Assembly (NCBI GenBank): GCA_013433145.1 | Contig: CM024179.1 | Location: forward strand, 7,165,300 to 7,229,299 | Reading direction: 5' to 3' | Origin: Ascaris suum | Taxonomy: Eukaryota > Nematoda > Chromadorea > Rhabditida > Ascarididae | Length of the DNA stretch: 64,000 bases | Shown here: positions 43,821 to 64,000 of the stretch, one piece after another | How the letters are laid out: every line of letters starts with the position of its first letter | Position numbering within the stretch: the stretch's first letter is position 1 | Notes under the pieces: generated by a model | Told to the model about the DNA's origin: nothing | What the model saw: the letters and a program-made list of their open reading frames with translations, nothing else | Databases searched by the model: none | Program-made: the position numbers and the translations under genes

Positions 43821-43890
43821 GCCCATAGCGGGGCGGCTAGCACTTAGGATTTTGAATCCTGCGACAGGAGTTCAAACCTCCCCAGGACCA
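43821..43890 (+). pseudogene. tRNA-Gln remnant at the array edge
   Basis: The 3' two-thirds, from the D-stem GCAC-equivalent through the TTG anticodon arm and T arm, is recognisable. The 5' acceptor strand is lost and the 3' strand is altered (CAGGACC). Confidence 0.7.
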
Positions 43891-44049
43891 CATACCTACT
43901 CCGTTGTCATCTTGAAGCAACAATATCTACAAACAATGAGGAAGCGGTTTGTTCTCAAGGTAACCGAGGTGTTTCGAACATTATTTTCACAAAAAGGTGT
44001 CCAAGGTAGTCGACCCCTCCGAAACATTCCTACATGGATGAGATTCCGC

Positions 44050-44120
44050 GGTCCCGTGGTGTAGCGGTCAGCACTCAGGACTCTGAATCCTGCGACGGGA
44101 GTTCAAATCTCCCCGGACTT
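44050..44120 (+). tRNA. tRNA-Gln (CTG), array copy 1
   Basis: Anticodon CTG. The 3' acceptor strand is altered (CGGACTT), one base short. Confidence 0.65.
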
Positions 44121-44279
44121 CATACCTGGCCTTTGCGAACCAGGCGCAACACTATTTTAGAAATAATGGGGAAGCGGTTTCTTCTCAACGAAGCCGAGGT
44201 GTTTCGAACACTGTTTTCACAAAAAAAGTTTCCGAGGTGGTGATCCGTATGAAACATTCGTACATACATGAGACTCCGC

Positions 44280-44351
44280 GGTCCCGTGGTCCAGCGGTCA
44301 GCACTCAGGACTCTGAATCCTGCGACGGGAGTTCAAATCTCCCCAGGAACT
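44280..44351 (+). tRNA. tRNA-Gln (CTG), array copy 2
   Basis: Anticodon CTG. The acceptor 3' strand is CAGGAAC, giving mismatches with GGTCCCG; the D arm has GTCC. Confidence 0.65.
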
Positions 44352-44510
44352 CAGACCTACGCCGTTGTCATCTTGAAGCAACAATATCTACAAACAATGT
44401 GGAAGCGGTTTGTTCTCAGGGTAGCCGAGGTGATTCGAACATCATTTTCAGAAGAAGGTTTCCGAGGTCGTTGGTTCGTCGGGAACATTCGCTCAAAAAC
44501 ACCAGTCTGC

Positions 44511-44582
44511 GGTCCCGTGCTGTAGCGGTTAGCACTCAGGACTCTGAATCCTGCGACGGGAGTTCAAATCTCCCCGGGACCT
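44511..44582 (+). tRNA. tRNA-Gln (CTG), array copy 3
   Basis: 72 nt, anticodon CTG. One D-stem substitution (CTGT). Confidence 0.85.
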
Positions 44583-44740
44583 GACACCTACGCCGTTGCC
44601 AAATTGAAGCAACACTATTTTAGAAAGAATGTGGAAGCGGTTTCTTCTCATGGTAGTCTTTTTTCGAAGATTATTTTCACAAAAAAAGTTTCCGAAGTGG
44701 TCGATCCGTCCGAAACATTCGTACATCCATGACACTCCGC

Positions 44741-44810
44741 GGTCCCGTGGTGTAGCGGTTAGCACTCAGGACTTGAATCCTGCGACGGGAGTTCAAATCT
44801 CCCCGGACCT
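44741..44810 (+). pseudogene. tRNA-Gln-like, 6-nt anticodon loop, copy 4
   Basis: One base is missing in the anticodon loop (CTTGAA) and one in the 3' acceptor strand. Confidence 0.7.
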
Positions 44811-44971
44811 CACACCTACGCCGTTGCCAAACTGAAGCAACACTATTTTAGAAATAATGTGGAAGCGGTTTGTTCTCAACATAGCCGAGGTGTTTCGAAC
44901 ACTATTTTCACAAAAAAAGTTTCCGAAGTGGTCGATCCGTCCGAAACATTCGTACATAGATCAGATTCCGC

Positions 44972-45043
44972 GGTCCCGTGGTGTAGCGGTCAGCACTCAG
45001 GACTCTGAATCCTGCGACGGGAGTTCAAATCTCCCCGGGACCT
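44972..45043 (+). tRNA. tRNA-Gln (CTG), array copy 5
   Basis: Regular 72-nt copy, anticodon CTG. Stems GGTCCCG/CGGGACC, GTGT/GCAC, CAGGA/TCCTG and GGGAG/CTCCC are perfect; the variable loop is CGAC and the discriminator is T. This is the reference structure for the other regular copies. Confidence 0.95.
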
Positions 45044-45202
45044 CATACCTACGCCGTTGCCAATTTGAAGCAACACTATTTTAGAAATAGTGTGGAAGCG
45101 GTTTCTTCTCAATGTACCGAGGTGTTTCGAACACTATTTTCACAAAAAAAGTTTCCGAAGTGGTTGATCCGTCCGAAACATTCGTCAAAAAGACTAGTCC
45201 GC

Positions 45203-45274
45203 GGTCCCGTGGTGTAGCGGTCAGCACTCAGGACTCTGAATCCTGCGACGGGAGTTCAAATCTCCCCGGGACCT
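45203..45274 (+). tRNA. tRNA-Gln (CTG), array copy 6
   Basis: Regular copy, anticodon CTG. Confidence 0.94.
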
Positions 45275-45433
45275 CATACCTGGCCGTTGCGAACCAGGCG
45301 CAACACTATTTTAGAAATAATGTGGAAGCGGTTTGTTCTCAAGGTAGCCGAGGTGTTTCGAACACTATTTTCACAAAAAAAGTTTCCGAAGTGGTGATCC
45401 GTCCGAAACATTCGTAGATACCTGAGAATCCGC

Positions 45434-45505
45434 GGTCCCGTGGTGTAGCGGTCAGCACTCAGGACTTTGAATCCTGCGACGGGAGTTCAAATCTCCCCGG
45501 GACCT
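45434..45505 (+). tRNA. tRNA-Gln (TTG), array copy 7
   Basis: Regular copy, anticodon TTG; first clean TTG copy from the left. Confidence 0.94.
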
Positions 45506-45667
45506 CATACCTACGGCCTTTGCGAACCATTCGCAACACTATTTTAGAAATAATGTGGAAGCGGTTTGTTCTCAACGTAGCCGAGGTGTTTCGAACACTA
45601 TTTTCACAAAAAAAGTTTCCGAAGTGGTCGATCCGTCCGAAACATTCGTACATACATGAGAATCCGC

Positions 45668-45739
45668 GGTCCCGTGGTGTAGCGGTTAGCACTCAGGACT
45701 TTGAATCCTGCGACGGGAGTTCAAATCTCCCCGGGACCT
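45668..45739 (+). tRNA. tRNA-Gln (TTG), array copy 8
   Basis: Regular, TTG; D-loop variant GGTTA. Confidence 0.94.
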
Positions 45740-45898
45740 CATACCTGGCCTTGCGAACCATTCGCAACACTATTTTAGAAATAATGTGGAAGCGGTTTCT
45801 CCTCAACGTAGCCGAGGTGTTTCGAACACTATTTTCACAAAAAAAGTTTCCGAAGTGGTCGATCCGTCCGAAACATTCGTACATCCATGAGACTCCGC

Positions 45899-45970
45899 GG
45901 TCCCGTGGTGTAGCGGTCAGCACTCAGGACTTTGAATCCTGCGACGGGAGTTCAAATCTCCCCGGGACCT
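45899..45970 (+). tRNA. tRNA-Gln (TTG), array copy 9
   Basis: Regular, TTG. Confidence 0.94.
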
Positions 45971-46131
45971 CATACCTACGCCGTTGCGAAACATGCGCAA
46001 CACTATTTTAGAAATAATGTGGAAGCGGTTTGTTCTCAAGGTAGCCGAGGTGTTTCGAACACTATTTTCACAAAAAAAGTTTCCGAAGTGGTCGATCCGT
46101 CCGAAACATTCGTACATACCTGAGAATCCGC

Positions 46132-46202
46132 GGTCCCGTGGTGTAGCGGTCAGCACTCAGGACTCTGAATCCTGCGACGGGAGTTCAAATCTCCCCGGAC
46201 CT
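46132..46202 (+). tRNA. tRNA-Gln (CTG), array copy 10
   Basis: CTG; one G missing in the 3' acceptor strand (CGGACC). Confidence 0.75.
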
Positions 46203-46360
46203 CACCTACGCCGTTGCCAAATTGAAGCAACACTATTTTACAAATAATGTGGAAGCGGTTTGTTCTCAAGGTAGCCGAGGTGTTTCGAACACTATTTTCA
46301 CAAAAAAAGTTTCCGAAGTGGTCGATCCGTCCGAAACATTCGTAGTCCATGAGACTCCGC

Positions 46361-46433
46361 GGTCCCGTGGTGTAGCGGTCAGCACTCAGGACTCTTGAAT
46401 CCTGCGACGGGAGTTCAAATCTCCCCGGGACCT
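46361..46433 (+). pseudogene. tRNA-Gln-like, 8-nt anticodon loop, copy 11
   Basis: An extra T in the anticodon loop (CTCTTGAA) makes the anticodon ambiguous between CTG and TTG; the rest is regular. Confidence 0.7.
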
Positions 46434-46593
46434 CATACCTACGCCGTTGCCAATTTGAAGCAACACTATTTTAGAAATAATGTGGAAGCGGTTTCTTCTC
46501 AAGGTAGCCGAGGTGTTTCGAACACTATTTTCACAAAAAAAGTTTCCGAAGTGGTGATCCGTCCGAAACATTCGTAGATACCTGAGAATCCGC

Positions 46594-46664
46594 GGTCCCG
46601 TGGTGTAGCGGTCAGCACTCAGGACTCTGAATCCTGCGACGGGAGTTCAAATCTCCCCGGACCT
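46594..46664 (+). tRNA. tRNA-Gln (CTG), array copy 12
   Basis: CTG; acceptor 3' strand one G short. Confidence 0.75.
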
Positions 46665-46823
46665 CATACCTACGCCGTTGCCAATTTGAAGCAACACTAT
46701 TTTAGAAATAATGTGGAAGCGGTTTCTTCTCAAGGTAGCCGAGGTGTTTCGAACACTATTTTCACAAAAAAAGTTTCCGAAGTGGTCGATCGTCCGAAAC
46801 ATTCGTCAAAAACCAGAATCCGC

Positions 46824-46894
46824 GGTCCCGTGGTGTAGCGGTCAGCACTCAGGACTCTGAATCCTGCGACGGGAGTTCAAATCTCCCCGGACCT
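46824..46894 (+). tRNA. tRNA-Gln (CTG), array copy 13
   Basis: CTG; acceptor 3' strand one G short. Confidence 0.75.
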
Positions 46895-47052
46895 CATATC
46901 TGGCCTTTGCGAACCAGGCGCAACACTATTTTAGAAATAATGGGAAGCGGTTTCTTCTCAACATAGCCGAGGTGTTTCGAACACTATTTTCACAAAAAAA
47001 GTTTCCGAAGTGGTGATCCGTCCGAAACATTCGTAGATACCTGAGAATCCGC

Positions 47053-47124
47053 GGTCCCGTGGTGTAGCGGTCAGCACTCAGGACTCTGAATCCTGCGACG
47101 GGAGTTCAAATCTCCCCGGGACCT
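47053..47124 (+). tRNA. tRNA-Gln (CTG), array copy 14
   Basis: Regular, CTG; start of a run of eight regular CTG copies. Confidence 0.95.
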
Positions 47125-47283
47125 CATACCTGGCCTTTGCGAACCAGGCGCAACACTATTTTAGAAATAATGGGGAAGCGGTTTCTTCTCAACATAGCCG
47201 AGGTGTTTCGAACACTATTTTCACAAAAAAAGTTTCCGAAGTGGTGATCCGTCCGAAACATTCGTAGATACCTGAGAATCCGC

Positions 47284-47355
47284 GGTCCCGTGGTGTAGCG
47301 GTCAGCACTCAGGACTCTGAATCCTGCGACGGGAGTTCAAATCTCCCCGGGACCT
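47284..47355 (+). tRNA. tRNA-Gln (CTG), array copy 15
   Basis: Regular, CTG. Confidence 0.95.
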
Positions 47356-47514
47356 CATACCTGGCCTTTGCGAACCATGCGCAACACTATTTTAGAAATA
47401 ATGTGGAAGCGGTTTCTTCTCAACGTAGCCGAGGTGTTTCGAACACTATTTTCACAAAAAAAGTTTCCGAAGTGGTGATCCGTCCGAAACATTCGTAGAT
47501 ACCTGAGAATCCGC

Positions 47515-47586
47515 GGTCCCGTGGTGTAGCGGTCAGCACTCAGGACTCTGAATCCTGCGACGGGAGTTCAAATCTCCCCGGGACCT
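47515..47586 (+). tRNA. tRNA-Gln (CTG), array copy 16
   Basis: Regular, CTG. Confidence 0.95.
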
Positions 47587-47746
47587 CATACCTGGCCTTT
47601 GCGAACCAGGCGCAACACTATTTTAGAAATAATGGGGAAGCGGTTTCTTCTCAACATAGCCGAGGTGTTTCGAACACTATTTTCACAAAAAAAGTTTCCG
47701 AAGTGGTCGATCCGTCCGAAACATTCGTACATACCTGAGAATCCGC

Positions 47747-47818
47747 GGTCCCGTGGTGTAGCGGTCAGCACTCAGGACTCTGAATCCTGCGACGGGAGTT
47801 CAAATCTCCCCGGGACCT
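47747..47818 (+). tRNA. tRNA-Gln (CTG), array copy 17
   Basis: Regular, CTG. Confidence 0.95.
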
Positions 47819-47978
47819 CATACCTGGCCTTTGCGAACCAGGCGCAACACTATTTTAGAAATAATGTGGAAGCGGTTTCTTCTCAACATAGCCGAGGTGT
47901 TTCGAACACTATTTTCACAAAAAAAGTTTCCGAAGTGGTCGATCCGTCCGAAACATTCGTACATACATGAGAATCCGC

Positions 47979-48050
47979 GGTCCCGTGGTGTAGCGGTCAG
48001 CACTCAGGACTCTGAATCCTGCGACGGGAGTTCAAATCTCCCCGGGACCT
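47979..48050 (+). tRNA. tRNA-Gln (CTG), array copy 18
   Basis: Regular, CTG. Confidence 0.95.
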
Positions 48051-48209
48051 GATACCTACGCCGTTGCCAATTGAAGCAACACTATTTTAGAAATAATGTG
48101 GAAGCGGTTTCTTCTCAAGGTAGCCGAGGTGTTTCGAACACTATTTTCACAAAAAAAGTTTCCGAAGTGGTCGATCCGTCCGAAACATTCGTACATACAT
48201 GAGATCCGC

Positions 48210-48281
48210 GGTCCCGTGGTGTAGCGGTCAGCACTCAGGACTCTGAATCCTGCGACGGGAGTTCAAATCTCCCCGGGACCT
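48210..48281 (+). tRNA. tRNA-Gln (CTG), array copy 19
   Basis: Regular, CTG; the spacer after it is unusual (GCCGTGCAACCAACAC). Confidence 0.95.
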
Positions 48282-48438
48282 CATACCTACGCCGTTGCCG
48301 TGCAACCAACACTATTTAGAAATAATGTGGAAGCGGTTTCTTCTCAACGTAGCCGAGGTGTTTCGAACACTATTTTCACAAAAAAAGTTTCCGAAGTGGT
48401 GATCCGTCCGAAATATTCGTAGATACCTGAGAATCCGC

Positions 48439-48510
48439 GGTCCCGTGGTGTAGCGGTCAGCACTCAGGACTCTGAATCCTGCGACGGGAGTTCAAATCTC
48501 CCCGGGACCT
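48439..48510 (+). tRNA. tRNA-Gln (CTG), array copy 20
   Basis: Regular, CTG. Confidence 0.95.
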
Positions 48511-48669
48511 CATACCTGGCCTTTGCGAACCAGGCGCAACACTATTTTAGAAATAATGTGGAAGCGGTTTGTTCTCAAGGTAGCCGAGGTGTTTCGAACA
48601 CTATTTTCACAAAAAAAGTTTCCGAAGTGGTGATCCGTCCGAAACATTCGTAGACACCTGAGAATCCGC

Positions 48670-48741
48670 GGTCCCGTGGTGTAGCGGTCAGCACTCAGGA
48701 CTCTGAATCCTGCGACGGGAGTTCAAATCTCCCCGGGACCT
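48670..48741 (+). tRNA. tRNA-Gln (CTG), array copy 21
   Basis: Regular, CTG. Confidence 0.95.
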
Positions 48742-48900
48742 CATACCTGGCCTTTGCGAAATTGCGCAACACTATTTTAGAAATAATGTGGAAGCGGTTT
48801 CTTCTCAACGTAGCCGAGGTGTTTCGAACACTATTTTCACAAAAAAAGTTTCCGAAGTGGTCGATCCGTCCGAAACATTCGTACATACATGAGACTCCGC

Positions 48901-48972
48901 GGTCCCGTGGTGTAGCGGTTAGCACTCAGGACTTTGAATCCTGCGACGGGAGTTCAAATCTCCCCGGGACCT
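48901..48972 (+). tRNA. tRNA-Gln (TTG), array copy 22
   Basis: Regular, TTG; D-loop variant GGTTA as in copy 8. Confidence 0.94.
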
Positions 48973-49131
48973 CATACCTGGCCTTTGCGAACCAGGCGCA
49001 ACACTATTTTAGAAATAATGTGGAAGCGGTTTCTCCTCAACGTAGCCGAGGTGTTTCGAACACTATTTTCACAAAAAAAGTTTCCGAAGTGGTCGATCCG
49101 TCCGAAACATTCGTAGATCCTGAGAATCCGC

Positions 49132-49202
49132 GGTCCCGTGGTGTAGCGGTCAGCACTCAGGACTTGAATCCTGCGACGGGAGTTCAAATCTCCCCGGGAC
49201 CT
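49132..49202 (+). pseudogene. tRNA-Gln-like, 6-nt anticodon loop, copy 23
   Basis: Anticodon loop CTTGAA, one base short; acceptor stem intact. Confidence 0.65.
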
Positions 49203-49360
49203 CATACCTACGCCGTTGCGAAACAAGCAACACTATTTTAGAAATAATGTGGAAGCGGTTTCTTCTCAACGTAGCCGAGGTGTTTCGAACACTATTTTCA
49301 CAAAAAAAGTTTCCGAAGTGGTGATCCGTCCGAAACATTCGTACATCCATGAGAATCCGC

Positions 49361-49432
49361 GGTCCCGTGGTGTAGCGGTCAGCACTCAGGACTCTGAATC
49401 CTGCGACGGGAGTTCAAATCTCCCCGGGACCT
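49361..49432 (+). tRNA. tRNA-Gln (CTG), array copy 24
   Basis: Regular, CTG. Confidence 0.95.
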
Positions 49433-49593
49433 CATACCTACGCCGTTGCGAACCAGAAACAACACTATTTTAGAAATAATGTGGAAGCGGTTTCTTCTCA
49501 AGGTAGCCGAGGTGTTTCGAACACTATTTTCACAAAAAAAGTTTCCGAAGTGGTCGATCCGTCCGAAACATTCGTACATCCATGAGAATCCGC

Positions 49594-49665
49594 GGTCCCG
49601 TGGTGTAGCGGTCAGCACTCAGGACTCTGAATCCTGCGACGGGAGTTCAAATCTCCCCGGGACCT
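49594..49665 (+). tRNA. tRNA-Gln (CTG), array copy 25
   Basis: Regular, CTG. Confidence 0.95.
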
Positions 49666-49824
49666 CATACCTGGCCTTTGCGAACCAGGCGCAACACTAT
49701 TTTAGAAATAATGTGGAAGCGGTTTCTTCTCAACGTAGCCGAGGTGTTTCGAACACTATTTTCACAAAAAAAGTTTCCGAAGTGGTGATCCGTCCGAAAC
49801 ATTCGTAGATACCTGAGAATCCGC

Positions 49825-49895
49825 GGTCCCGTGGTGTAGCGGTCAGCACTCAGGACTTTGAATCCTGCGACGGGAGTTCAAATCTCCCCGGACCT
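49825..49895 (+). tRNA. tRNA-Gln (TTG), array copy 26
   Basis: TTG; acceptor 3' strand one G short. Confidence 0.75.
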
Positions 49896-50054
49896 CATAC
49901 CTACGCCGTTGCGTGTTCAAATAACACTATTTTACAAATAATGTGGAAGCGGTTTCTTCTCAAGGTAGCCGAGGTGTTTCGAACACTATTTTCACAAAAA
50001 AAGTTTCCGAAGTGGTGATCCGTCCGAAACATTCGTAGATACCTGAGAATCCGC

Positions 50055-50126
50055 GGTCCCGTGGTGTAGCGGTCAGCACTCAGGACTCTGAATCCTGCGA
50101 CGGGAGTTCAAATCTCCCCGGGACCT
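50055..50126 (+). tRNA. tRNA-Gln (CTG), array copy 27
   Basis: Regular, CTG. Confidence 0.95.
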
Positions 50127-50287
50127 CATACCTACGGCGTTGCCAAATTGAAGCAACACTATTTTACAAATAATGTGGAAGCGGTTTCTTCTCAACGTAG
50201 CCGAGGTGTTTCGAACACTATTTTCACAAAAAAAGTTTCCGAAGTGGTCGATCCGTCCGAAACATTCGTACATCCATGAGACTCCGC

Positions 50288-50359
50288 GGTCCCGTGGTGT
50301 AGCGGTCAGCACTCAGGACTTTGAATCCTGCGACGGGAGTTCAAATCTCCCCGGGACCT
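50288..50359 (+). tRNA. tRNA-Gln (TTG), array copy 28
   Basis: Regular, TTG. Confidence 0.95.
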
Positions 50360-50518
50360 CATACCTACGCCGTTGCCAATTGAAGCAACACTATTTTAGA
50401 AATAATGTGGAAGCGGTTTCTTCTCAAGGTAGCCGAGGTGTTTCGAACACTATTTTCACAAAAAAAGTTTCCGAAGTGGTGATCCGTCCGAAACATTCGT
50501 ACATACCTGAGAATCCGC

Positions 50519-50589
50519 GGTCCCGTGGTGTAGCGGTCAGCACTCAGGACTTTGAATCCTGCGACGGGAGTTCAAATCTCCCCGGACCT
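50519..50589 (+). tRNA. tRNA-Gln (TTG), array copy 29
   Basis: TTG; acceptor 3' strand one G short. Confidence 0.75.
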
Positions 50590-50747
50590 CATACCTGGCG
50601 TTGCGAAATTGCGCAACACTATTTTAGAAATAATGTGGAAGCGGTTTCTTCTCAAGGTAGCCGAGGTGTTTCGAACACTATTTTCACAAAAAAAGTTTCC
50701 GAAGTGGTCGATCCGTCCGAAACATTCGTACATCCATGAGAATCCGC

Positions 50748-50819
50748 GGTCCCGTGGTGTAGCGGTCAGCACTCAGGACTCTGAATCCTGCGACGGGAGT
50801 TCAAATCTCCCCGGGACCT
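50748..50819 (+). tRNA. tRNA-Gln (CTG), array copy 30
   Basis: Regular, CTG. Confidence 0.95.
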
Positions 50820-50978
50820 CATACCTGGCCTTTGCGAACCATGCGCAACACTATTTTAGAAATAATGGGAAGCGGTTTCTTCTCAACGTAGCCGAGGTGT
50901 TTCGAACACTATTTTCACAAAAAAAGTTTCCGAAGTGGTCGATCCGTCCGAAACATTCGTACATACATGAGAATCCGC

Positions 50979-51050
50979 GGTCCCGTGGTGTAGCGGTCAG
51001 CACTCAGGACTTTGAATCCTGCGACGGGAGTTCAAATCTCCCCGGGACCT
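50979..51050 (+). tRNA. tRNA-Gln (TTG), array copy 31
   Basis: Regular, TTG. Confidence 0.95.
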
Positions 51051-51211
51051 CATACCTACGGCGTTGCGAAATTGAAGCAACACTATTTTAGAAATAATGT
51101 GGAAGCGGTTTCTTCTCAAGGTAGCCGAGGTGTTTCGAACACTATTTTCACAAAAAAAGTTTCCGAAGTGGTCGATCCGTCCGAAACATTCGTACATCCA
51201 TGAGAATCCGC

Positions 51212-51283
51212 GGTCCCGTGGTGTAGCGGTCAGCACTCAGGACTTTGAATCCTGCGACGGGAGTTCAAATCTCCCCGGGACCT
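51212..51283 (+). tRNA. tRNA-Gln (TTG), array copy 32
   Basis: Regular, TTG. Confidence 0.95.
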
Positions 51284-51443
51284 CATACCTACGGCCGTTG
51301 CGAAATTGAAGCAACACTATTTTAGAAATAATGTGGAAGCGGTTTCTTCTCAAGGTAGCCGAGGTGTTTCGAACACTATTTTCACAAAAAAAGTTTCCGA
51401 AGTGGTCGATCCGTCCGAAACATTCGTACACCTGAGAATCCGC

Positions 51444-51514
51444 GGTCCCGTGGTGTAGCGGTCAGCACTCAGGACTTGAATCCTGCGACGGGAGTTCAAA
51501 TCTCCCCGGGACCT
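51444..51514 (+). pseudogene. tRNA-Gln-like, 6-nt anticodon loop, copy 33
   Basis: Anticodon loop CTTGAA, one base short; otherwise regular. Confidence 0.65.
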
Positions 51515-51673
51515 CATACCTGGCCTTTGCGAAACATGCGCAACACTATTTTAGAAATAATGTGGAAGCGGTTTCTTCTCAAGGTAGCCGAGGTGTTTCG
51601 AACACTATTTTCACAAAAAAAGTTTCCGAAGTGGTGATCCGTCCGAAACATTCGTACATACATGAGAATCCGC

Positions 51674-51745
51674 GGTCCCGTGGTGTAGCGGTCAGCACTC
51701 AGGACTCTGAATCCTGCGACGGGAGTTCAAATCTCCCCGGGACCT
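51674..51745 (+). tRNA. tRNA-Gln (CTG), array copy 34
   Basis: Regular, CTG. Confidence 0.95.
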
Positions 51746-51902
51746 CATACCTGGCCTTGCGAAATTGCGCAACACTATTTTAGAAATAATGTGGAAGCGG
51801 TTTCTTCTCAAGTAGCCGAGGTGTTTCGAACACTATTTTCACAAAAAAAGTTTCCGAAGTGGTCGATCCGTCCGAAACATTCGTACATCCATGAGAATCC
51901 GC

Positions 51903-51974
51903 GGTCCCGTGGTGTAGCGGTCAGCACTCAGGACTTTGAATCCTGCGACGGGAGTTCAAATCTCCCCGGGACCT
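51903..51974 (+). tRNA. tRNA-Gln (TTG), array copy 35
   Basis: Regular, TTG. Confidence 0.95.
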
Positions 51975-52132
51975 CATACCTGGCCTTTGCGAAACAAGCA
52001 ACACTATTTTAGAAATAATGTGGAAGCGGTTTCTTCTCAACGTAGCCGAGGTGTTTCGAACACTATTTTCACAAAAAAAGTTTCCGAAGTGGTCGATCCG
52101 TCCGAAACATTCGTACATACCTGAGAATCCGC

Positions 52133-55658: not shown

Positions 55659-55818
55659 CATACCTACGGCGTTGCGAACCAGGCGCAACACTATTTTAGA
55701 AATAATGTGGAAGCGGTTTCTTCTCAACGTAGCCGAGGTGTTTCGAACACTATTTTCACAAAAAAAGTTTCCGAAGTGGTGATCCGTCCGAAACATTCGT
55801 AGATACCTGAGAATCCGC

Positions 55819-55890
55819 GGTCCCGTGGTGTAGCGGTCAGCACTCAGGACTTTGAATCCTGCGACGGGAGTTCAAATCTCCCCGGGACCT
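55819..55890 (+). tRNA. tRNA-Gln (TTG), array copy 52
   Basis: Regular, TTG. Confidence 0.95.
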
Positions 55891-56049
55891 CATACCTGGC
55901 CTTTGCGAACCATGCGCAACACTATTTTAGAAATAATGTGGAAGCGGTTTCTTCTCAACGTAGCCGAGGTGTTTCGAACACTATTTTCACAAAAAAAGTT
56001 TCCGAAGTGGTGATCCGTCCGAAACATTCGTAGATACCTGAGAATCCGC

Positions 56050-56121
56050 GGTCCCGTGGTGTAGCGGTCAGCACTCAGGACTTTGAATCCTGCGACGGGA
56101 GTTCAAATCTCCCCGGGACCT
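56050..56121 (+). tRNA. tRNA-Gln (TTG), array copy 53
   Basis: Regular, TTG. Confidence 0.95.
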
Positions 56122-56279
56122 CATACCTGGCCTTGCGAAATTGAAGCAACACTATTTTAGAAATAATGTGGAAGCGGTTTCTTCTCAACGTAGCCGAGGT
56201 GTTTCGAACACTATTTTCACAAAAAAAGTTTCCGAAGTGGTCGATCCGTCCGAAACATTCGTACATCCTGAGAATCCGC

Positions 56280-56351
56280 GGTCCCGTGGTGTAGCGGTCA
56301 GCACTCAGGACTTTGAATCCTGCGACGGGAGTTCAAATCTCCCCGGGACCT
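56280..56351 (+). tRNA. tRNA-Gln (TTG), array copy 54
   Basis: Regular, TTG. Confidence 0.95.
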
Positions 56352-56510
56352 CATACCTGGCCGTTGCGAAATTGCGCAACACTATTTTAGAAATAATGTG
56401 GAAGCGGTTTCTTCTCAACGTAGCCGAGGTGTTTCGAACACTATTTTCACAAAAAAAGTTTCCGAAGTGGTCGATCCGTCCGAAACATTCGTACATACCT
56501 GAGAATCCGC

Positions 56511-56582
56511 GGTCCCGTGGTGTAGCGGTCAGCACTCAGGACTTTGAATCCTGCGACGGGAGTTCAAATCTCCCCGGGACCT
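56511..56582 (+). tRNA. tRNA-Gln (TTG), array copy 55
   Basis: Regular, TTG. Confidence 0.95.
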
Positions 56583-56740
56583 CATACCTGGCCTTTGCGA
56601 AACGCGCAACACTATTTTAGAAATAATGTGGAAGCGGTTTCTTCTCAACGTAGCCGAGGTGTTTCGAACACTATTTTCACAAAAAAAGTTTCCGAAGTGG
56701 TCGATCCGTCCGAAACATTCGTACATACCTGAGAATCCGC

Positions 56741-56812
56741 GGTCCCGTGGTGTAGCGGTCAGCACTCAGGACTTTGAATCCTGCGACGGGAGTTCAAATC
56801 TCCCCGGGACCT
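56741..56812 (+). tRNA. tRNA-Gln (TTG), array copy 56
   Basis: Regular, TTG; its spacer has the short form GGTTTCCCTCAACG. Confidence 0.95.
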
Positions 56813-56972
56813 CATACCTACGGCGTTGCCAAATTGAAGCAACACTATTTTAGAAATAATGTGGAAGCGGTTTCCCTCAACGTAGCCGAGGTGTTTCGAA
56901 CACTATTTTCACAAAAAAAGTTTCCGAAGTGGTCGATCCGTCCGAAACATTCGTACATCCATGAGAATCCGC

Positions 56973-57043
56973 GGTCCCGTGGTGTAGCGGTCAGCACTCA
57001 GGACTTTGAATCCTGCGACGGGAGTTCAAATCTCCCCGGACCT
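56973..57043 (+). tRNA. tRNA-Gln (TTG), array copy 57
   Basis: TTG; acceptor 3' strand one G short. Confidence 0.75.
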
Positions 57044-57202
57044 CATACCTGGCCTTGCGAACCAGGCGCAACACTATTTTAGAAATAATGTGGAAGCGGT
57101 TTCTTCTCAAGGTAGCCGAGGTGTTTCGAACACTATTTTCACAAAAAAAGTTTCCGAAGTGGTCGATCCGTCCGAAACATTCGTACATCCATGAGAATCC
57201 GC

Positions 57203-57274
57203 GGTCCCGTGGTGTAGCGGTCAGCACTCAGGACTTTGAATCCTGCGACGGGAGTTCAAATCTCCCCGGGACCT
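57203..57274 (+). tRNA. tRNA-Gln (TTG), array copy 58
   Basis: Regular, TTG. Confidence 0.95.
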
Positions 57275-57430
57275 CATACCTGGCCTTGCGAAAGCGCAAC
57301 ACTATTTTAGAAATAATGTGGAAGCGGTTTCTTCTCAACGTAGCCGAGGTGTTTCGAACACTATTTTCACAAAAAAAGTTTCCGAAGTGGTCGATCCGTC
57401 CGAAACATTCGTACATACCTGAGAATCCGC

Positions 57431-57502
57431 GGTCCCGTGGTGTAGCGGTCAGCACTCAGGACTTTGAATCCTGCGACGGGAGTTCAAATCTCCCCGGGAC
57501 CT
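57431..57502 (+). tRNA. tRNA-Gln (TTG), array copy 59
   Basis: Regular, TTG. Confidence 0.95.
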
Positions 57503-57662
57503 CATACCTACGCCGTTGCCAAATTCAAGCAACACTATTTTAGAAATAATGTGGAAGCGGTTTCTTCTCAACGTAGCCGAGGTGTTTCGAACACTATTTT
57601 CACAAAAAAAGTTTCCGAAGTGGTCGATCCGTCCGAAACATTCGTACATCCTGAGAATCCGC

Positions 57663-57734
57663 GGTCCCGTGGTGTAGCGGTCAGCACTCAGGACTTTGAA
57701 TCCTGCGACGGGAGTTCAAATCTCCCCGGGACCT
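57663..57734 (+). tRNA. tRNA-Gln (TTG), array copy 60
   Basis: Regular, TTG. Confidence 0.95.
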
Positions 57735-57894
57735 CATACCTGGCCTTTGCGAAACAGGCGCAACACTATTTTAGAAATAATGTGGAAGCGGTTTCTTCTC
57801 AACGTAGCCGAGGTGTTTCGAACACTATTTTCACAAAAAAAGTTTCCGAAGTGGTCGATCCGTCCGAAACATTCGTACATCCATGAGAATCCGC

Positions 57895-57966
57895 GGTCCC
57901 GTGGTGTAGCGGTCAGCACTCAGGACTTTGAATCCTGCGACGGGAGTTCAAATCTCCCCGGGACCT
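57895..57966 (+). tRNA. tRNA-Gln (TTG), array copy 61
   Basis: Regular, TTG. Confidence 0.95.
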
Positions 57967-58126
57967 CATACCTGGCCTTTGCGAAACATGCGCAACACTA
58001 TTTTAGAAATAATGTGGAAGCGGTTTCTTCTCAAGGTAGCCGAGGTGTTTCGAACACTATTTTCACAAAAAAAGTTTCCGAAGTGGTCGATCCGTCCGAA
58101 ACATTCGTACATCCATGAGACTCCGC

Positions 58127-58198
58127 GGTCCCGTGGTGTAGCGGTCAGCACTCAGGACTTTGAATCCTGCGACGGGAGTTCAAATCTCCCCGGGACCT
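58127..58198 (+). tRNA. tRNA-Gln (TTG), array copy 62
   Basis: Regular, TTG. Confidence 0.95.
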
Positions 58199-58358
58199 CA
58201 TACCTACGGCCGTTGCGTGTTCAAGCAACACTATTTTAGAAATAATGTGGAAGCGGTTTCTTCTCAAGTAGCCGAGGTGTTTCGAACACTATTTTCACAA
58301 AAAAAGTTTCCGAAGTGGTCGATCCGTCCGAAACATTCGTACATCCATGAGAATCCGC

Positions 58359-58430
58359 GGTCCCGTGGTGTAGCGGTCAGCACTCAGGACTTTGAATCCT
58401 GCGACGGGAGTTCAAATCTCCCCGGGACCT
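58359..58430 (+). tRNA. tRNA-Gln (TTG), array copy 63
   Basis: Regular, TTG. Confidence 0.95.
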
Positions 58431-58588
58431 CATACCTGGCCTTGCGAACCAGAAGCAACACTATTTTAGAAATAATGTGGAAGCGGTTTCTTCTCAACGT
58501 AGCCGAGGTGTTTCGAACACTATTTTCACAAAAAAAGTTTCCGAAGTGGTCGATCCGTCCGAAACATTCGTACATCCTGAGAATCCGC

Positions 58589-58660
58589 GGTCCCGTGGTG
58601 TAGCGGTCAGCACTCAGGACTTTGAATCCTGCGACGGGAGTTCAAATCTCCCCGGGACCT
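58589..58660 (+). tRNA. tRNA-Gln (TTG), array copy 64
   Basis: Regular, TTG; its spacer shares the short GGTTTCCCTCAACG form with copy 56. Confidence 0.95.
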
Positions 58661-58820
58661 CATACCTACGGCGTTGCGAAATTGAAGCAACACTATTTTA
58701 GAAATAATGTGGAAGCGGTTTCCCTCAACGTAGCCGAGGTGTTTCGAACACTATTTTCACAAAAAAAGTTTCCGAAGTGGTCGATCCGTCCGAAACATTC
58801 GTACATACCTGAGAATCCGC

Positions 58821-58892
58821 GGTCCCGTGGTGTAGCGGTCAGCACTCAGGACTTTGAATCCTGCGACGGGAGTTCAAATCTCCCCGGGACCT
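58821..58892 (+). tRNA. tRNA-Gln (TTG), array copy 65
   Basis: Regular, TTG. Confidence 0.95.
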
Positions 58893-59052
58893 CATACCTA
58901 CGCCGTTGCGTGTTCAAATAACACTATTTTAGAAATAATGTGGAAGCGGTTTCTTCTCAACGTAGCCGAGGTGTTTCGAACACTATTTTCACAAAAAAAG
59001 TTTCCGAAGTGGTCGATCCGTCCGAAACATTCGTACATCCATGAGAATCCGC

Positions 59053-59124
59053 GGTCCCGTGGTGTAGCGGTCAGCACTCAGGACTTTGAATCCTGCGACG
59101 GGAGTTCAAATCTCCCCGGGACCT
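59053..59124 (+). tRNA. tRNA-Gln (TTG), array copy 66
   Basis: Regular, TTG; end of the long TTG run. Confidence 0.95.
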
Positions 59125-59284
59125 CATACCTACGGCCGTTGCGAACCAAGCAACACTATTTTAGAAATAATGTGGAAGCGGTTTCTTCTCAACGTAGCCG
59201 AGGTGTTTCGAACACTATTTTCACAAAAAAAGTTTCCGAAGTGGTCGATCCGTCCGAAACATTCGTAGATACCTGAGAATCCGC

Positions 59285-59356
59285 GGTCCCGTGGTGTAGC
59301 GGTCAGCACTCAGGACTCTGAATCCTGCGACGGGAGTTCAAATCTCCCCGGGACCT
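59285..59356 (+). tRNA. tRNA-Gln (CTG), array copy 67
   Basis: Regular, CTG. Confidence 0.95.
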
Positions 59357-59516
59357 CATACCTGGCCTTTGCGAACCAGGCGCAACACTATTTTAGAAAT
59401 AATGTGGAAGCGGTTTCTTCTCAACGTAGCCGAGGTGTTTCGAACACTATTTTCACAAAAAAAGTTTCCGAAGTGGTCGATCCGTCCGAAACATTCGTAG
59501 ATACCTGAGAATCCGC

Positions 59517-59588
59517 GGTCCCGTGGTGTAGCGGTCAGCACTCAGGACTCTGAATCCTGCGACGGGAGTTCAAATCTCCCCGGGACCT
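59517..59588 (+). tRNA. tRNA-Gln (CTG), array copy 68
   Basis: Regular, CTG. Confidence 0.95.
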
Positions 59589-59743
59589 CATACCTACGCC
59601 GTTGCCAAGCAACACTATTTTAGAAATAATGTGGAAGCGGTTTCTTCTCAACGTAGCCGAGGTGTTTCGAACACTATTTTCACAAAAAAAGTTTCCGAAG
59701 TGGTCGATCCGTCCGAAACATTCGTACATCCATGAGAATCCGC

Positions 59744-59778
59744 GGTCCCGTGGTGTAGCGGTTCAGCTCAGGACTCTG
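59744..59778 (+). pseudogene. Truncated tRNA-Gln, array copy 69
   Basis: Begins normally but breaks in the anticodon region (CAGGACTCT) and joins directly to the spacer block GCCGAGGTG. The 3' half and about 110 bp of unit are deleted. GGTTCAGCTC in the D arm is also rearranged. Confidence 0.9.
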
Positions 59779-59865
59779 CCGAGGTGTTTTCGAACACTAT
59801 TTTCACAAAAAAAGTTTCCGAAGTGGTGATCCGTCCGAAACATTCGTAGATACCTGAGAATCCGC

Positions 59866-59937
59866 GGTCCCGTGGTGTAGCGGTCAGCACTCAGGACTTT
59901 GAATCCTGCGACGGGAGTTCAAATCTCCCCGGGACCT
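59866..59937 (+). tRNA. tRNA-Gln (TTG), array copy 70
   Basis: Regular, TTG. Confidence 0.95.
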
Positions 59938-60097
59938 CATACCTGGCCGTTGCGAACCAGAAGCAACACTATTTTAGAAATAATGTGGAAGCGGTTTCTT
60001 CTCAACGTAGCCGAGGTGTTTCGAACACTATTTTCACAAAAAAAGTTTCCGAAGTGGTCGATCCGTCCGAAACATTCGTACATACCTGAGAATCCGC

Positions 60098-60168
60098 GGT
60101 CCCGTGGTGTAGCGGTCAGCACTCAGGACTTTGAATCCTGCGACGGGAGTTCAAATCTCCCCGGACCT
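60098..60168 (+). tRNA. tRNA-Gln (TTG), array copy 71
   Basis: TTG; acceptor 3' strand one G short. Confidence 0.75.
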
Positions 60169-60327
60169 CATACCTGGCCTTTGCGAACCAGGCGCAACAC
60201 TATTTTAGAAATAATGTGGAAGCGGTTTCTTCTCAAGGTAGCCGAGGTGTTTCGAACACTATTTTCACAAAAAAAGTTTCCGAAGTGGTGATCCGTCCGA
60301 AACATTCGTAGATACCTGAGAATCCGC

Positions 60328-60399
60328 GGTCCCGTGGTGTAGCGGTCAGCACTCAGGACTTTGAATCCTGCGACGGGAGTTCAAATCTCCCCGGGACCT
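60328..60399 (+). tRNA. tRNA-Gln (TTG), array copy 72
   Basis: Regular, TTG. Confidence 0.95.
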
Positions 60400-60558
60400 C
60401 ATACCTGGCCTTTGCGAACCATGCGCAACACTATTTTAGAAATAATGTGGAAGCGGTTTCTTCTCAACGTAGCCGAGGTGTTTCGAACACTATTTTCACA
60501 AAAAAAGTTTCCGAAGTGGTGATCCGTCCGAAACATTCGTAGATACCTGAGAATCCGC

Positions 60559-60629
60559 GGTCCCGTGGTGTAGCGGTCAGCACTCAGGACTTTGAATCCT
60601 GCGACGGGAGTTCAAATCTCCCCGGACCT
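60559..60629 (+). tRNA. tRNA-Gln (TTG), array copy 73
   Basis: TTG; acceptor 3' strand one G short. Confidence 0.75.
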
Positions 60630-60788
60630 CATACCTGGCCTTTGCGAACCAGGCGCAACACTATTTTAGAAATAATGTGGAAGCGGTTTCTTCTCAACGT
60701 AGCCGAGGTGTTTCGAACACTATTTTCACAAAAAAAGTTTCCGAAGTGGTGATCCGTCCGAAACATTCGTAGATACCTGAGAATCCGC

Positions 60789-60860
60789 GGTCCCGTGGTG
60801 TAGCGGTCAGCACTCAGGACTTTGAATCCTGCGACGGGAGTTCAAATCTCCCCGGGACCT
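60789..60860 (+). tRNA. tRNA-Gln (TTG), array copy 74
   Basis: Regular, TTG. Confidence 0.95.
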
Positions 60861-61018
60861 CATACCTACGCCGTTGCCGAACAAGCAACACTATTTTAGA
60901 AATAATGTGGAAGCGGTTTCTTCTCAACGTAGCCGAGGTGTTTCGAACACTATTTTCACAAAAAAAGTTTCCGAAGTGGTGATCCGTCCGAAACATTCGT
61001 AGATACCTGAGAATCCGC

Positions 61019-61090
61019 GGTCCCGTGGTGTAGCGGTCAGCACTCAGGACTCTGAATCCTGCGACGGGAGTTCAAATCTCCCCGGGACCT
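61019..61090 (+). tRNA. tRNA-Gln (CTG), array copy 75
   Basis: Regular, CTG. Confidence 0.95.
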
Positions 61091-61249
61091 CATACCTACG
61101 GCGTTGCCAAACAGAAGCAACACTATTTTAGAAATAATGTGGAAGCGGTTTCTTCTCAACGTAGCCGAGGTGTTTCGAACACTATTTTCACAAAAAAAGT
61201 TTCCGAAGTGGTGATCCGTCCGAAACATTCGTACATCCTGAGAATCCGC

Positions 61250-61321
61250 GGTCCCGTGGTGTAGCGGTCAGCACTCAGGACTTTGAATCCTGCGACGGGA
61301 GTTCAAATCTCCCCGGGACCT
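61250..61321 (+). tRNA. tRNA-Gln (TTG), array copy 76
   Basis: Regular, TTG. Confidence 0.95.
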
Positions 61322-61479
61322 CATACCTGGCCTTTGCGAACCAGGCGCAACACTATTTTAGAAATAATGTGGAAGCGGTTTCTCTCAAGGTAGCCGAGGT
61401 GTTTCGAACACTATTTTCACAAAAAAAGTTTCCGAAGTGGTGATCCGTCCGAAACATTCGTAGATACCTGAGAATCCGC

Positions 61480-61551
61480 GGTCCCGTGGTGTAGCGGTCA
61501 GCACTCAGGACTCTGAATCCTGCGACGGGAGTTCAAATCTCCCCGGGACCT
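61480..61551 (+). tRNA. tRNA-Gln (CTG), array copy 77
   Basis: Regular, CTG. Confidence 0.95.
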
Positions 61552-61711
61552 CATACCTACGCCGTTGCGAACCAGGCGCAACACTATTTTAGAAATAATG
61601 TGGAAGCGGTTTCTTCTCAAGGTAGCCGAGGTGTTTCGAACACTATTTTCACAAAAAAAGTTTCCGAAGTGGTGATCCGTCCGAAACATTCGTAGATACC
61701 TGAGAATCCGC

Positions 61712-61782
61712 GGTCCCGTGGTGTAGCGGTCAGCACTCAGGACTTTGAATCCTGCGACGGGAGTTCAAATCTCCCGGGACCT
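61712..61782 (+). tRNA. tRNA-Gln (TTG), array copy 78
   Basis: TTG; one C missing at the T-stem/acceptor junction (CTCCCGGGACC). Confidence 0.75.
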
Positions 61783-61943
61783 CATACCTACGGCCTTTGC
61801 GAACCAGGCGCAACACTATTTTAGAAATAATGTGGAAGCGGTTTCTTCTCAAGGTAGCCGAGGTGTTTCGAACACTATTTTCACAAAAAAAGTTTCCGAA
61901 GTGGTGATCCGTCCGAAACATTCGTAGATACCTGAGAATCCGC

Positions 61944-62015
61944 GGTCCCGTGGTGTAGCGGTCAGCACTCAGGACTTTGAATCCTGCGACGGGAGTTCAA
62001 ATCTCCCCGGGACCT
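61944..62015 (+). tRNA. tRNA-Gln (TTG), array copy 79
   Basis: Regular, TTG. Confidence 0.95.
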
Positions 62016-62175
62016 CATACCTACGCCGTTGCGAACCTGAAGCAACACTATTTTAGAAATAATGTGGAAGCGGTTTCTTCTCAAGGTAGCCGAGGTGTTT
62101 CGAACACTATTTTCACAAAAAAAGTTTCCGAAGTGGTGATCCGTCCGAAACATTCGTAGATACCTGAGAATCCGC

Positions 62176-62247
62176 GGTCCCGTGGTGTAGCGGTCAGCAC
62201 TCAGGACTTTGAATCCTGCGACGGGAGTTCAAATCTCCCCGGGACCT
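62176..62247 (+). tRNA. tRNA-Gln (TTG), array copy 80
   Basis: Regular, TTG. Confidence 0.95.
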
Positions 62248-62406
62248 CATACCTGGCCTTTGCGAACCAGGCGCAACACTATTTTAGAAATAATGTGGAA
62301 GCGGTTTCTTCTCAAGGTAGCCGAGGTGTTTCGAACACTATTTTCACAAAAAAAGTTTCCGAAGTGGTGATCCGTCCGAAACATTCGTAGATACCTGAGA
62401 ATCCGC

Positions 62407-62478
62407 GGTCCCGTGGTGTAGCGGTCAGCACTCAGGACTTTGAATCCTGCGACGGGAGTTCAAATCTCCCCGGGACCT
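62407..62478 (+). tRNA. tRNA-Gln (TTG), array copy 81
   Basis: Regular, TTG. Confidence 0.95.
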
Positions 62479-62640
62479 CATACCTACGGCCGTTGCGAAA
62501 CTGAAGCAACACTATTTTAGAAATAATGTGGAAGCGGTTTCTTCTCAAGGTAGCCGAGGTGTTTCGAACACTATTTTCACAAAAAAAGTTTCCGAAGTGG
62601 TCGATCCGTCCGAAACATTCGTACATACATGAGACTCCGC

Positions 62641-62712
62641 GGTCCCGTGGTGTAGCGGTCAGCACTCAGGACTTTGAATCCTGCGACGGGAGTTCAAATC
62701 TCCCCGGGACCT
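62641..62712 (+). tRNA. tRNA-Gln (TTG), array copy 82
   Basis: Regular, TTG. Confidence 0.95.
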
Positions 62713-62869
62713 CATACCTGGCCTTTGCGAAACAGGCGCAACACTATTTTAGAAATAATGTGGAAGCGGTTTTCTCAACGTAGCCGAGGTGTTTCGAACA
62801 CTATTTTCACAAAAAAAGTTTCCGAAGTGGTGATCCGTCCGAAACATTCGTAGATACCTGAGAATCCGC

Positions 62870-62940
62870 GGTCCCGTGGTGTAGCGGTCAGCACTCAGGA
62901 CTTTGAATCCTGCGACGGGAGTTCAAATCTCCCCGGACCT
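62870..62940 (+). tRNA. tRNA-Gln (TTG), array copy 83
   Basis: TTG; acceptor 3' strand one G short. Confidence 0.75.
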
Positions 62941-63099
62941 CATACCTGGCCTTTGCGAACCAGGCGCAACACTATTTTAGAAATAATGTGGAAGCGGTTT
63001 CTTCTCAAGGTAGCCGAGGTGTTTCGAACACTATTTTCACAAAAAAAGTTTCCGAAGTGGTGATCCGTCCGAAACATTCGTAGATACCTGAGAATCCGC

Positions 63100-63171
63100 G
63101 GTCCCGTGGTGTAGCGGTCAGCACTCAGGACTTTGAATCCTGCGACGGGAGTTCAAATCTCCCCGGGACCT
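63100..63171 (+). tRNA. tRNA-Gln (TTG), array copy 84
   Basis: Regular, TTG. Confidence 0.95.
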
Positions 63172-63330
63172 CATACCTACGGCCTTTGCGAAACAAGCAA
63201 CACTATTTTAGAAATAATGTGGAAGCGGTTTCTTCTCAAGGTAGCCGAGGTGTTTCGAACACTATTTTCACAAAAAAAGTTTCCGAAGTGGTGATCCGTC
63301 CGAAACATTCGTAGATACCTGAGAATCCGC

Positions 63331-63401
63331 GGTCCCGTGGTGTAGCGGTCAGCACTCAGGACTTTGAATCCTGCGACGGGAGTTCAAATCTCCCCGGACC
63401 T
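63331..63401 (+). tRNA. tRNA-Gln (TTG), array copy 85
   Basis: TTG; acceptor 3' strand one G short. Confidence 0.75.
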
Positions 63402-63560
63402 CATACCTGGCCGTTGCGAAACAGAAGCAACACTATTTTAGAAATAATGTGGAAGCGGTTTCTTCTCAACGTAGCCGAGGTGTTTCGAACACTATTTTCA
63501 CAAAAAAAGTTTCCGAAGTGGTGATCCGTCCGAAACATTCGTAGATACCTGAGAATCCGC

Positions 63561-63632
63561 GGTCCCGTGGTGTAGCGGTCAGCACTCAGGACTTTGAATC
63601 CTGCGACGGGAGTTCAAATCTCCCCGGGACCT
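63561..63632 (+). tRNA. tRNA-Gln (TTG), array copy 86
   Basis: Regular, TTG. Confidence 0.95.
63568..63579 (+). promoter_or_regulatory. Internal Pol III promoter (A box), representative
   Basis: TGGTGTAGCGG fits the A-box consensus TRGYNNARYGG exactly. The B box of the same gene, AGTTCAAATCT, is the form usual in tRNA-Gln. Both are unchanged in nearly all copies, so transcription competence is plausible. Confidence 0.7.
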
Positions 63633-63666
63633 CATACCTGGCCTTTGCGAAACAGGCGCAACACTA

Positions 63667-63670
63667 TTTT
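63667..63670 (+). terminator. Pol III T-run terminator, repeated in every unit
   Basis: The first run of four T after the tRNA lies about 35 nt past its end, inside the constant ACTATTTTAG. A second T4 occurs further down in ACTATTTTCAC. The position is constant through the array, so each unit could be an independent transcription unit with a trailer of about 35 nt. The coordinates are those of the unit whose tRNA ends at 63632. Confidence 0.6.
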
Positions 63671-63791
63671 AGAAATAATGTGGAAGCGGTTTCTTCTCAA
63701 GGTAGCCGAGGTGTTTCGAACACTATTTTCACAAAAAAAGTTTCCGAAGTGGTGATCCGTCCGAAACATTCGTAGATACCTGAGAATCCGC

Positions 63792-63862
63792 GGTCCCGTG
63801 GTGTAGCGGTCAGCACTCAGGACTCTGAATCCTGCGACGGGAGTTCAAATCTCCCCGGACCT
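63792..63862 (+). tRNA. tRNA-Gln (CTG), array copy 87
   Basis: CTG; acceptor 3' strand one G short. Last tRNA in the window; the unit that follows is cut by the window end. Confidence 0.75.
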
Positions 63863-64000
63863 CATACCTACGCCGTTGCGAAACTGAAGCAACACTATTT
63901 TAGAAATAATGTGGAAGCGGTTTCTTCTCAACGTAGCCGAGGTGTTTCGAACACTATTTTCACAAAAAAAGTTTCCGAAGTGGTGATCCGTCCGAAACAT

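Follow-up and report, generated by a model that had tools for sequence, protein, structure and literature searches.

In animals, tRNA genes are usually described as scattered or gathered in mostly small clusters. Long tandem tRNA arrays are described in Entamoeba, where 25 array units carry 1–5 tRNA types each and an estimated 4,500 copies (PMC2652664). Clusters of fifty and more tRNA genes are found in Nematostella and teleost fish, and clustered tRNA organisation is held by the authors of that survey to have arisen independently many times in eukaryotes (PMC2888827). Here, we analyzed a 64,000-nucleotide stretch of the Ascaris suum genome (the window; C17:7165300-7229299), the right-hand part of which is occupied by a tandem array of tRNA-Gln genes, together with the 277.8 Mb in 97 contigs of the assembly to which it belongs. 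A published PCR primer for the 120-bp germline satellite of Ascaris (PMC6675119) has 2,761 matches in this assembly when up to one mismatch is allowed, and none when its sequence is reversed. The Gln array belongs to a set of tRNA arrays spread over the genome, each dedicated to a single isoacceptor.

The likeness to the Entamoeba arrays that was drawn in an earlier note on this DNA holds. Both lineages have long tandem tRNA arrays, mostly uniform units, many isotypes, thousands of copies and some dispersed genes. They differ in that some Entamoeba units also carry 5S RNA, the Entamoeba arrays make up more than 10% of the genome, and short tandem repeats lie between the tRNA genes of E. histolytica and E. 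dispar (PMC2652664). In Ascaris, each unit sampled from the 12 arrays has one tRNA gene, and the arrays found here amount by our estimate to well under 1% of the genome. The same note had called such an array unusual for an animal, and unusual it is, although not unheard of given the Nematostella and teleost clusters. For those clusters, the available parts of the survey describe no fixed repeat unit and no layout of one isotype per array, and in Danio the mixed pairs K-N, K-S and R-T are the most frequent (PMC2888827). The human variable number tandem repeat (VNTR) of tRNA genes at 1q23.3 resembles the Ascaris arrays in being a tandem tRNA array with units 98% identical and retroelement flanks, but it has a 7.3-kb unit, 9–43 copies and one locus (PMC4041453). 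Tandemly repeated tRNA genes also form the Arabidopsis Ser-Tyr-Tyr (SYY) cluster, which a single tissue uses although it is silent in most cells; it differs in belonging to a plant, in having two amino acids per cluster and in being confined to one locus (PMC12308677). Baylisascaris schroederi, an ascaridoid relative of Ascaris, has 6,190 tRNA genes with copy numbers said to reflect codon usage, and no array organisation is described in the available parts of that paper (PMC9684166). A number of this size suggests that the expansion is shared with Ascaris.

No published account of these Ascaris arrays was found among the titles and abstracts listed, in a literature whose coverage is incomplete (the 2020 A. 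suum assembly paper and most subscription journals lie outside it), so that their absence from print is not established. The parts available of PMC7647404, PMC8065839, PMC8837657 and PMC9894435 mention tRNA once, once, twice and not at all, respectively, and none of these mentions is about arrays. Tandem tRNA arrays are known elsewhere; a multi-isotype set with one gene per unit in a nematode looks new.

The Gln array starts at position 43819 of the window and occupies its + strand up to the last base, 64000. A BLAST scan over the window and the next 50 kb placed unit starts at window coordinates 43819 to 84245 and the array end at ~84316, giving 176 units over ~40.5 kb (about C17:7209118-7249615 in contig coordinates). 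The span of 43821..64000 noted before was therefore correct at its start, its end being the window edge only. The count of at least 87 units in the window is borne out by the 88 that the scan detects, 86 of which were scored by ARAGORN and Rfam; the two added by the scan are the decayed first unit (43819) and a short one of 122 bp with a truncated tRNA (59744..59865, + strand), also seen by Tandem Repeats Finder. The latter program returns the 231-bp period reported earlier, from 43839 to 64000 in two adjoining rows, and only 5 of the 175 unit spacings in the whole array fall outside 215–245 bp. All 86 ARAGORN tRNAs (44050-63863) are on the + strand, in agreement with the single strand noted earlier; 82 of them are Gln (CTG or TTG) and four have an indel in the anticodon. 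Infernal-type scoring, which had been named as a check, gives 86 matches to Rfam RF00005 in the window, with scores between 45.6 and 68.2 bits (cut-off, 29), and no Rfam family other than tRNA above cut-off there. Over the whole array, there are 170 RF00005 matches above cut-off for 176 units (86 in the window and 84 beyond) and 167 ARAGORN tRNAs. Base composition changes at the array as well, with 48–49% G+C inside and 30–41% to its left (2-kb windows). A chance origin is ruled out by the 86 tRNA matches in one register. A SINE or other dispersed repeat is ruled out too, as an exact 18-mer from the 5' half of tRNA-Gln occurs 162 times on the forward strand of the genome and never on the reverse, with two occurrences outside the array among the places listed.

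At least 12 single-isotype tRNA arrays are present on six contigs, representing 11 anticodon types (Gln and Ala each counted once) and nine amino acids. This is a partial census: the RF00005 genome search scored 63 of 14,580 first-look candidates, and array isotypes were named from small fetched stretches around the first T-arm match places, the arrays of later contigs staying unnamed. The tandem runs that the RF00005 search gave on C1 and C22 are Lys-TTT, at two loci (C1:3.395 Mb on the + strand and C1:3.588 Mb on the - strand), and Arg-TCT. The remaining arrays are Cys-GCA (201-bp unit, at least 36 matches), Gly-TCC (212 bp, at least 84 matches), Asn-GTT (356 bp, at least 68 matches), His-GTG (200 bp, reaching at least C3:10390342), Phe-GAA (181 bp, reaching at least C13:7336379), Ala (153 bp, C1:5285846 to at least 5330751), Arg-TCG (262 bp, C13:3.13 Mb, at least 58 matches) and Lys-CTT (183 bp, C7:7037960 to at least 7060332). 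Sampled stretches of all 12 show one tRNA gene per unit, with units of about 153–356 bp. Nineteen probes of 400–600 bp aimed at array ends contained no ARAGORN tRNA in 15 cases, which brackets those ends, though gaps could do likewise.

The set is probably larger than these 12. Four T-arm patterns gave 433, 1,150, 1,068 and 525 matches in the genome (3,176 in total) vs 157, 56, 146 and 73 (432) for the reversed patterns, and many of the matches listed fall in regular series. The 12 arrays hold roughly 1,150 genes, a sum taken from unit spacing on the assumption that the arrays are unbroken. The T-arm excess of ~2,740 plus the Gln array, whose T-arm is outside the reach of the four patterns, suggests near 3,000 tRNA-like genes and makes further arrays likely. 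One T-arm pattern, TGGTTCRAHNCCA, has 367 forward matches in the genome. Those listed, which extend to C16:4.79 Mb, form no array, implying that the contigs after that point hold at least one further large array. Another T-arm, AGGTTCGAGTCCT, occurs three times at 262-bp intervals on the - strand of C13 (1254371-1254907), with T-arm and spacing as in the Arg-TCG array, and is perhaps a small satellite copy of that array at C13:3.13 Mb.

The spacers of these arrays show no similarity to one another at E 0.01, except between the two Lys-TTT arrays, which lie in opposite orientation about 190 kb apart on C1. A single tRNA satellite that spread through the genome is ruled out by this lack of relation. 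Instead, eleven unrelated spacer types argue that the same amplification took place on many occasions and always included a complete tRNA gene. The Lys-TTT pair, judging from the alignment, derives from a common spacer ancestor. Between the two, 38 of 242 aligned spacer sites differ and none of 73 body sites does (p 4e-5).

Whether the tRNA bodies are maintained as genes was assessed on 439 units of the 12 arrays, irregular units being excluded. The alignment is essentially full-length for the Gln and the two Lys-TTT arrays and covers part of the others (at least eight arrays were partly sampled). When a site is counted as polymorphic if a second base reaches 8% of units and occurs in two or more of them, 15 of 872 tRNA sites are polymorphic vs 218 of 1,943 spacer sites (Fisher p 2.6e-21). 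The Ala array holds 11 of those 15; without it, the figures become 4 of 800 and 189 of 1,861. Because neither the sites nor the units of an array are independent of one another, p-values should be read as guides. In the sampled units of seven arrays (Arg-TCT, the first Lys-TTT, Lys-CTT, Asn, Gly, His and Arg-TCG), not one of 12,391 tRNA sites is substituted, vs 737 of 27,458 spacer sites. Substitutions in the tRNA of the other five (Gln, the second Lys-TTT, Ala, Cys and Phe) range from 0.26% to 5.05%, in each case under the value of the array's own spacer, and tRNA diversity is lower than mid-spacer diversity in 12 of 12 arrays. The unsubstituted bodies of seven arrays beside variable spacers suggest that tRNA function is being kept. 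Moreover, the bodies carry variants of their own. Gln units have C20 in 162 of 171 cases, whereas four of four dispersed copies examined have T at that position, and the Lys arrays read AGAAGGC where three of three dispersed genes read AGAGGGC. The clean bodies are thus not accounted for by copying from these dispersed genes.

Within the Gln array, 171 of the 176 units could be aligned, five irregular ones being excluded. An intact representative (TTG anticodon; ARAGORN and Rfam, 68.0 bits) is located at 45899..45970 on the + strand. Its A box (45906..45916, +), TGGTGTAGCGG, matches the consensus TRGYNNARNNG, and its B box region (45949..45959, +), AGTTCAAATCT, is two bases off the general B-box consensus. 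The conservation of tRNA structure in most units that had been claimed is supported by the number of RF00005 matches and qualified by the finding that the body is perfect, with CTG or TTG, in only 103 of 171 units. The G at position 66 is missing in 36 units, and the anticodon region (positions 33–37) reads TTTGA or TCTGA in 153 and otherwise in 18, including 12 in which it is shortened to TTGA. At the wobble base (position 34), 117 units have T, 51 have C and three have a gap. Either base gives a Gln anticodon (TTG or CTG), and this is the sole common tRNA polymorphism of the array.

Across the 171 units, substitutions affect 1.0% of tRNA positions and 4.2% of spacer positions, the spacer variation being clustered at positions 73–105, 133, 141 and 215–226. 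Units 5–100 form a uniform core with tRNAs 0.3–0.4% off consensus (gaps counted, here and for both edges). The first five units (43819..44971, + strand) are decayed, with 7.3% of tRNA and 9.7% of cold-spacer positions off consensus, and the last thirty or so have drifted as well, their tRNAs being about 4% off consensus. Decayed edges around a uniform core are expected if unequal exchange keeps the middle alike. Positions 73–105 constitute a hypervariable trailer of ~33 bases (45971..46004, +, in the representative unit) with 110 different versions among 171 units and nearly invariant neighbours. The versions mix parts of a few haplotypes and show little linkage to sites outside the trailer; this diversity could be either real short-tract shuffling or read mixing in the consensus. 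By eye, common versions allow a short hairpin stem, but the varying positions do not look compensatory.

The T-run terminator reported for these units is not a run close to the gene. A lone TTTT is found in all 171 units, starting 30–38 nt downstream of the gene in 162 and 77–95 nt downstream in nine (46006..46009, +, in the representative, starting 36 nt past the gene's last base).

Taken together, the sequence comparisons make it probable that the arrays are functional tRNA gene-dosage arrays homogenised by unequal exchange. Each array would have arisen separately, the two Lys-TTT arrays together, when a single tRNA gene was amplified in tandem along with its flanking sequence. The similarity of the core units would then be maintained by unequal exchange and gene conversion as the edges decay, and the bodies would be kept intact by selection acting on the tRNA copies as a pool. 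We infer transcription, a dosage role and the agent of homogenisation as follows: RNA polymerase III would read each unit singly from its internal A and B boxes, the Gln transcripts would extend into an unusually long trailer and terminate at the distal TTTT, and the Gln array would most likely act as a dosage reserve for CAA and CAG decoding, perhaps for egg production and early embryos. Of the two possibilities raised previously, an expressed dosage cluster or a satellite derived from a tRNA gene, the invariant bodies beside variable spacers in the sister arrays favour the former, and the scarcity of near terminators and the degenerate Ala array leave the choice less than complete.

Several observations weigh against functional dosage arrays. 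The gene-like constraint inside the unit emerges over 12 arrays and makes a weak case in the Gln array by itself, where the body is imperfect in 68 of 171 units and where, in units 5–140, core bodies carry 8 substitutions in 9,585 positions vs 30 in 14,985 for the cold spacer (p 0.03; position 34 and the spacer hot sites were left out after seeing the data). Homogenisation alone is almost sufficient there, the cold spacer being nearly as uniform as the tRNA, and the evidence for selection comes mainly from the sister arrays. The Ala array, with an imperfect body in 51 of 52 units, looks to be decaying and degenerate. A TTTT within 10 nt of the gene is found in one of 12 array consensus units, vs seven of nine dispersed genes (four Gln, three Lys and two Thr; p 0.002). 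Only Cys has it that close, followed by Arg-TCT (15 nt) and Ala (16 nt), and the Lys-TTT arrays have their first TTTT only at about 155–156 nt. Scarce near terminators could mean either long trailers, other termination signals or many silent copies. The mutation signature of transcribed tRNA flanks is inconsistent over the 12 arrays and gives no clear signal: diversity exceeds that of the mid-spacer in the upstream 20 nt of six arrays and in the downstream 20 nt of four, with means of 0.085 upstream, 0.060 downstream and 0.075 in mid-spacer. Finally, dispersed Gln, Lys and Thr tRNA genes are also present in the genome, including four Gln genes of 64.7–68.2 bits (RF00005), so the Gln array is not the sole source of this tRNA.

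In the Ala array, the wobble base across the 52 units of C1:5294000-5301999 is T in 15, C in 11, A in 13 and G in nine, with a gap in four.

Some of these observations would be expected of a tRNA-derived satellite. In this reading, a tandem duplication took in a functional tRNA gene, and the resulting repeat expanded through unequal exchange as neutral or selfish DNA, with the majority of its copies silent and the tRNA a passenger. The Gln array does have the pattern of a satellite (head-to-tail repeats, a homogenised core and diverged edges), and the distant terminators of most arrays, the almost tRNA-like uniformity of the Gln core cold spacer and the degeneracy of the Ala array agree with it, as do the precedents of Entamoeba, where array function is called obscure and many copies are considered likely to be transcriptionally inactive (PMC2652664), and of the Arabidopsis SYY cluster, silent in most tissues (PMC12308677). 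A passenger would nevertheless not be expected to stay free of substitutions in the sampled units of seven of 12 arrays beside variable spacers, nor to keep identical consensus bodies in the two Lys-TTT arrays while their spacers diverged, nor would eleven unrelated spacer types each be found around a whole tRNA gene; we therefore regard the satellite as rather unlikely. Alternatively, the copies might be functional and mostly packaged in a silent state, as in rDNA, with the array serving as a boundary, replication-pause or pairing element and its tRNAs used from few units or at one stage. This would explain intact bodies together with poor terminators, and there is precedent in the human 1q23.3 VNTR, proposed as a boundary element (PMC4041453), and in the expression of the SYY cluster mainly in root cap cells (PMC12308677). 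Yet the array spacers share no similarity that we could find, save for the Lys-TTT pair, and we consider a structural or reserve role improbable.

It is also conceivable that array length, mosaic trailers and broken anticodons were produced when noisy long reads from a repeat were merged into a consensus. PacBio and Hi-C are the data listed for the A. suum assembly (PMC8065839), deletions reach 3.0% at the 22 polymorphic sites of the Gln unit, roughly six times their frequency at the other 209 (0.5%), and the anticodons reduced to "tg" at the C/T wobble site are as expected of mixed reads, as is the haplotype mixing of the trailers. Such a pattern fits mixed or noisy reads, and some of the broken Gln units and the exact copy number may thus be artefacts. 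However, the commonest single deletion (G66) affects a run of three Gs and is not among the polymorphic sites, and the edge units bear numerous private differences. Elsewhere in this assembly several arrays are clean, and tRNA genes number in the thousands in a second ascarid. Read mixing could account for indels and copy number, not for the array itself, and as an explanation of the whole it is very improbable.

Returning to functional dosage arrays, a more general proposal can be put forward tentatively. Ascarids may keep most of their cytoplasmic tRNA genes as rRNA genes are kept, in one dedicated, concertedly evolving array per isoacceptor, with about 3,000 copies sized to codon demand and used chiefly for egg production and the early embryo. 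They would then represent an independently reached animal counterpart of the Entamoeba arrays, possibly with readthrough of units that have no near terminator.

Separate arrays for at least nine amino acids constitute natural replicates, with the same class of gene set in 11 unrelated spacers. They open the way to asking how arrays originate and remain uniform, whether copy number tracks codon demand and which of the units are active. Bases specific to the arrays, C20 of Gln for example, are ready markers with which tRNA sequencing could measure the share of the arrays directly. Annotation of tRNA genes in ascarids is affected as well, because gene counts are inflated by the arrays, in which errors of the consensus may also be present.

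To the left of the Gln array, 10 open reading frames from a total of 71 stop-to-stop frames were compared with Pfam, and no family was found in nine of them. The remaining one is a fragment of a Pao-type retrotransposon on the - strand at 40911-41297 (Peptidase_A17, PF05380, E 3e-9), situated ~2.5 kb from the first unit of the array.

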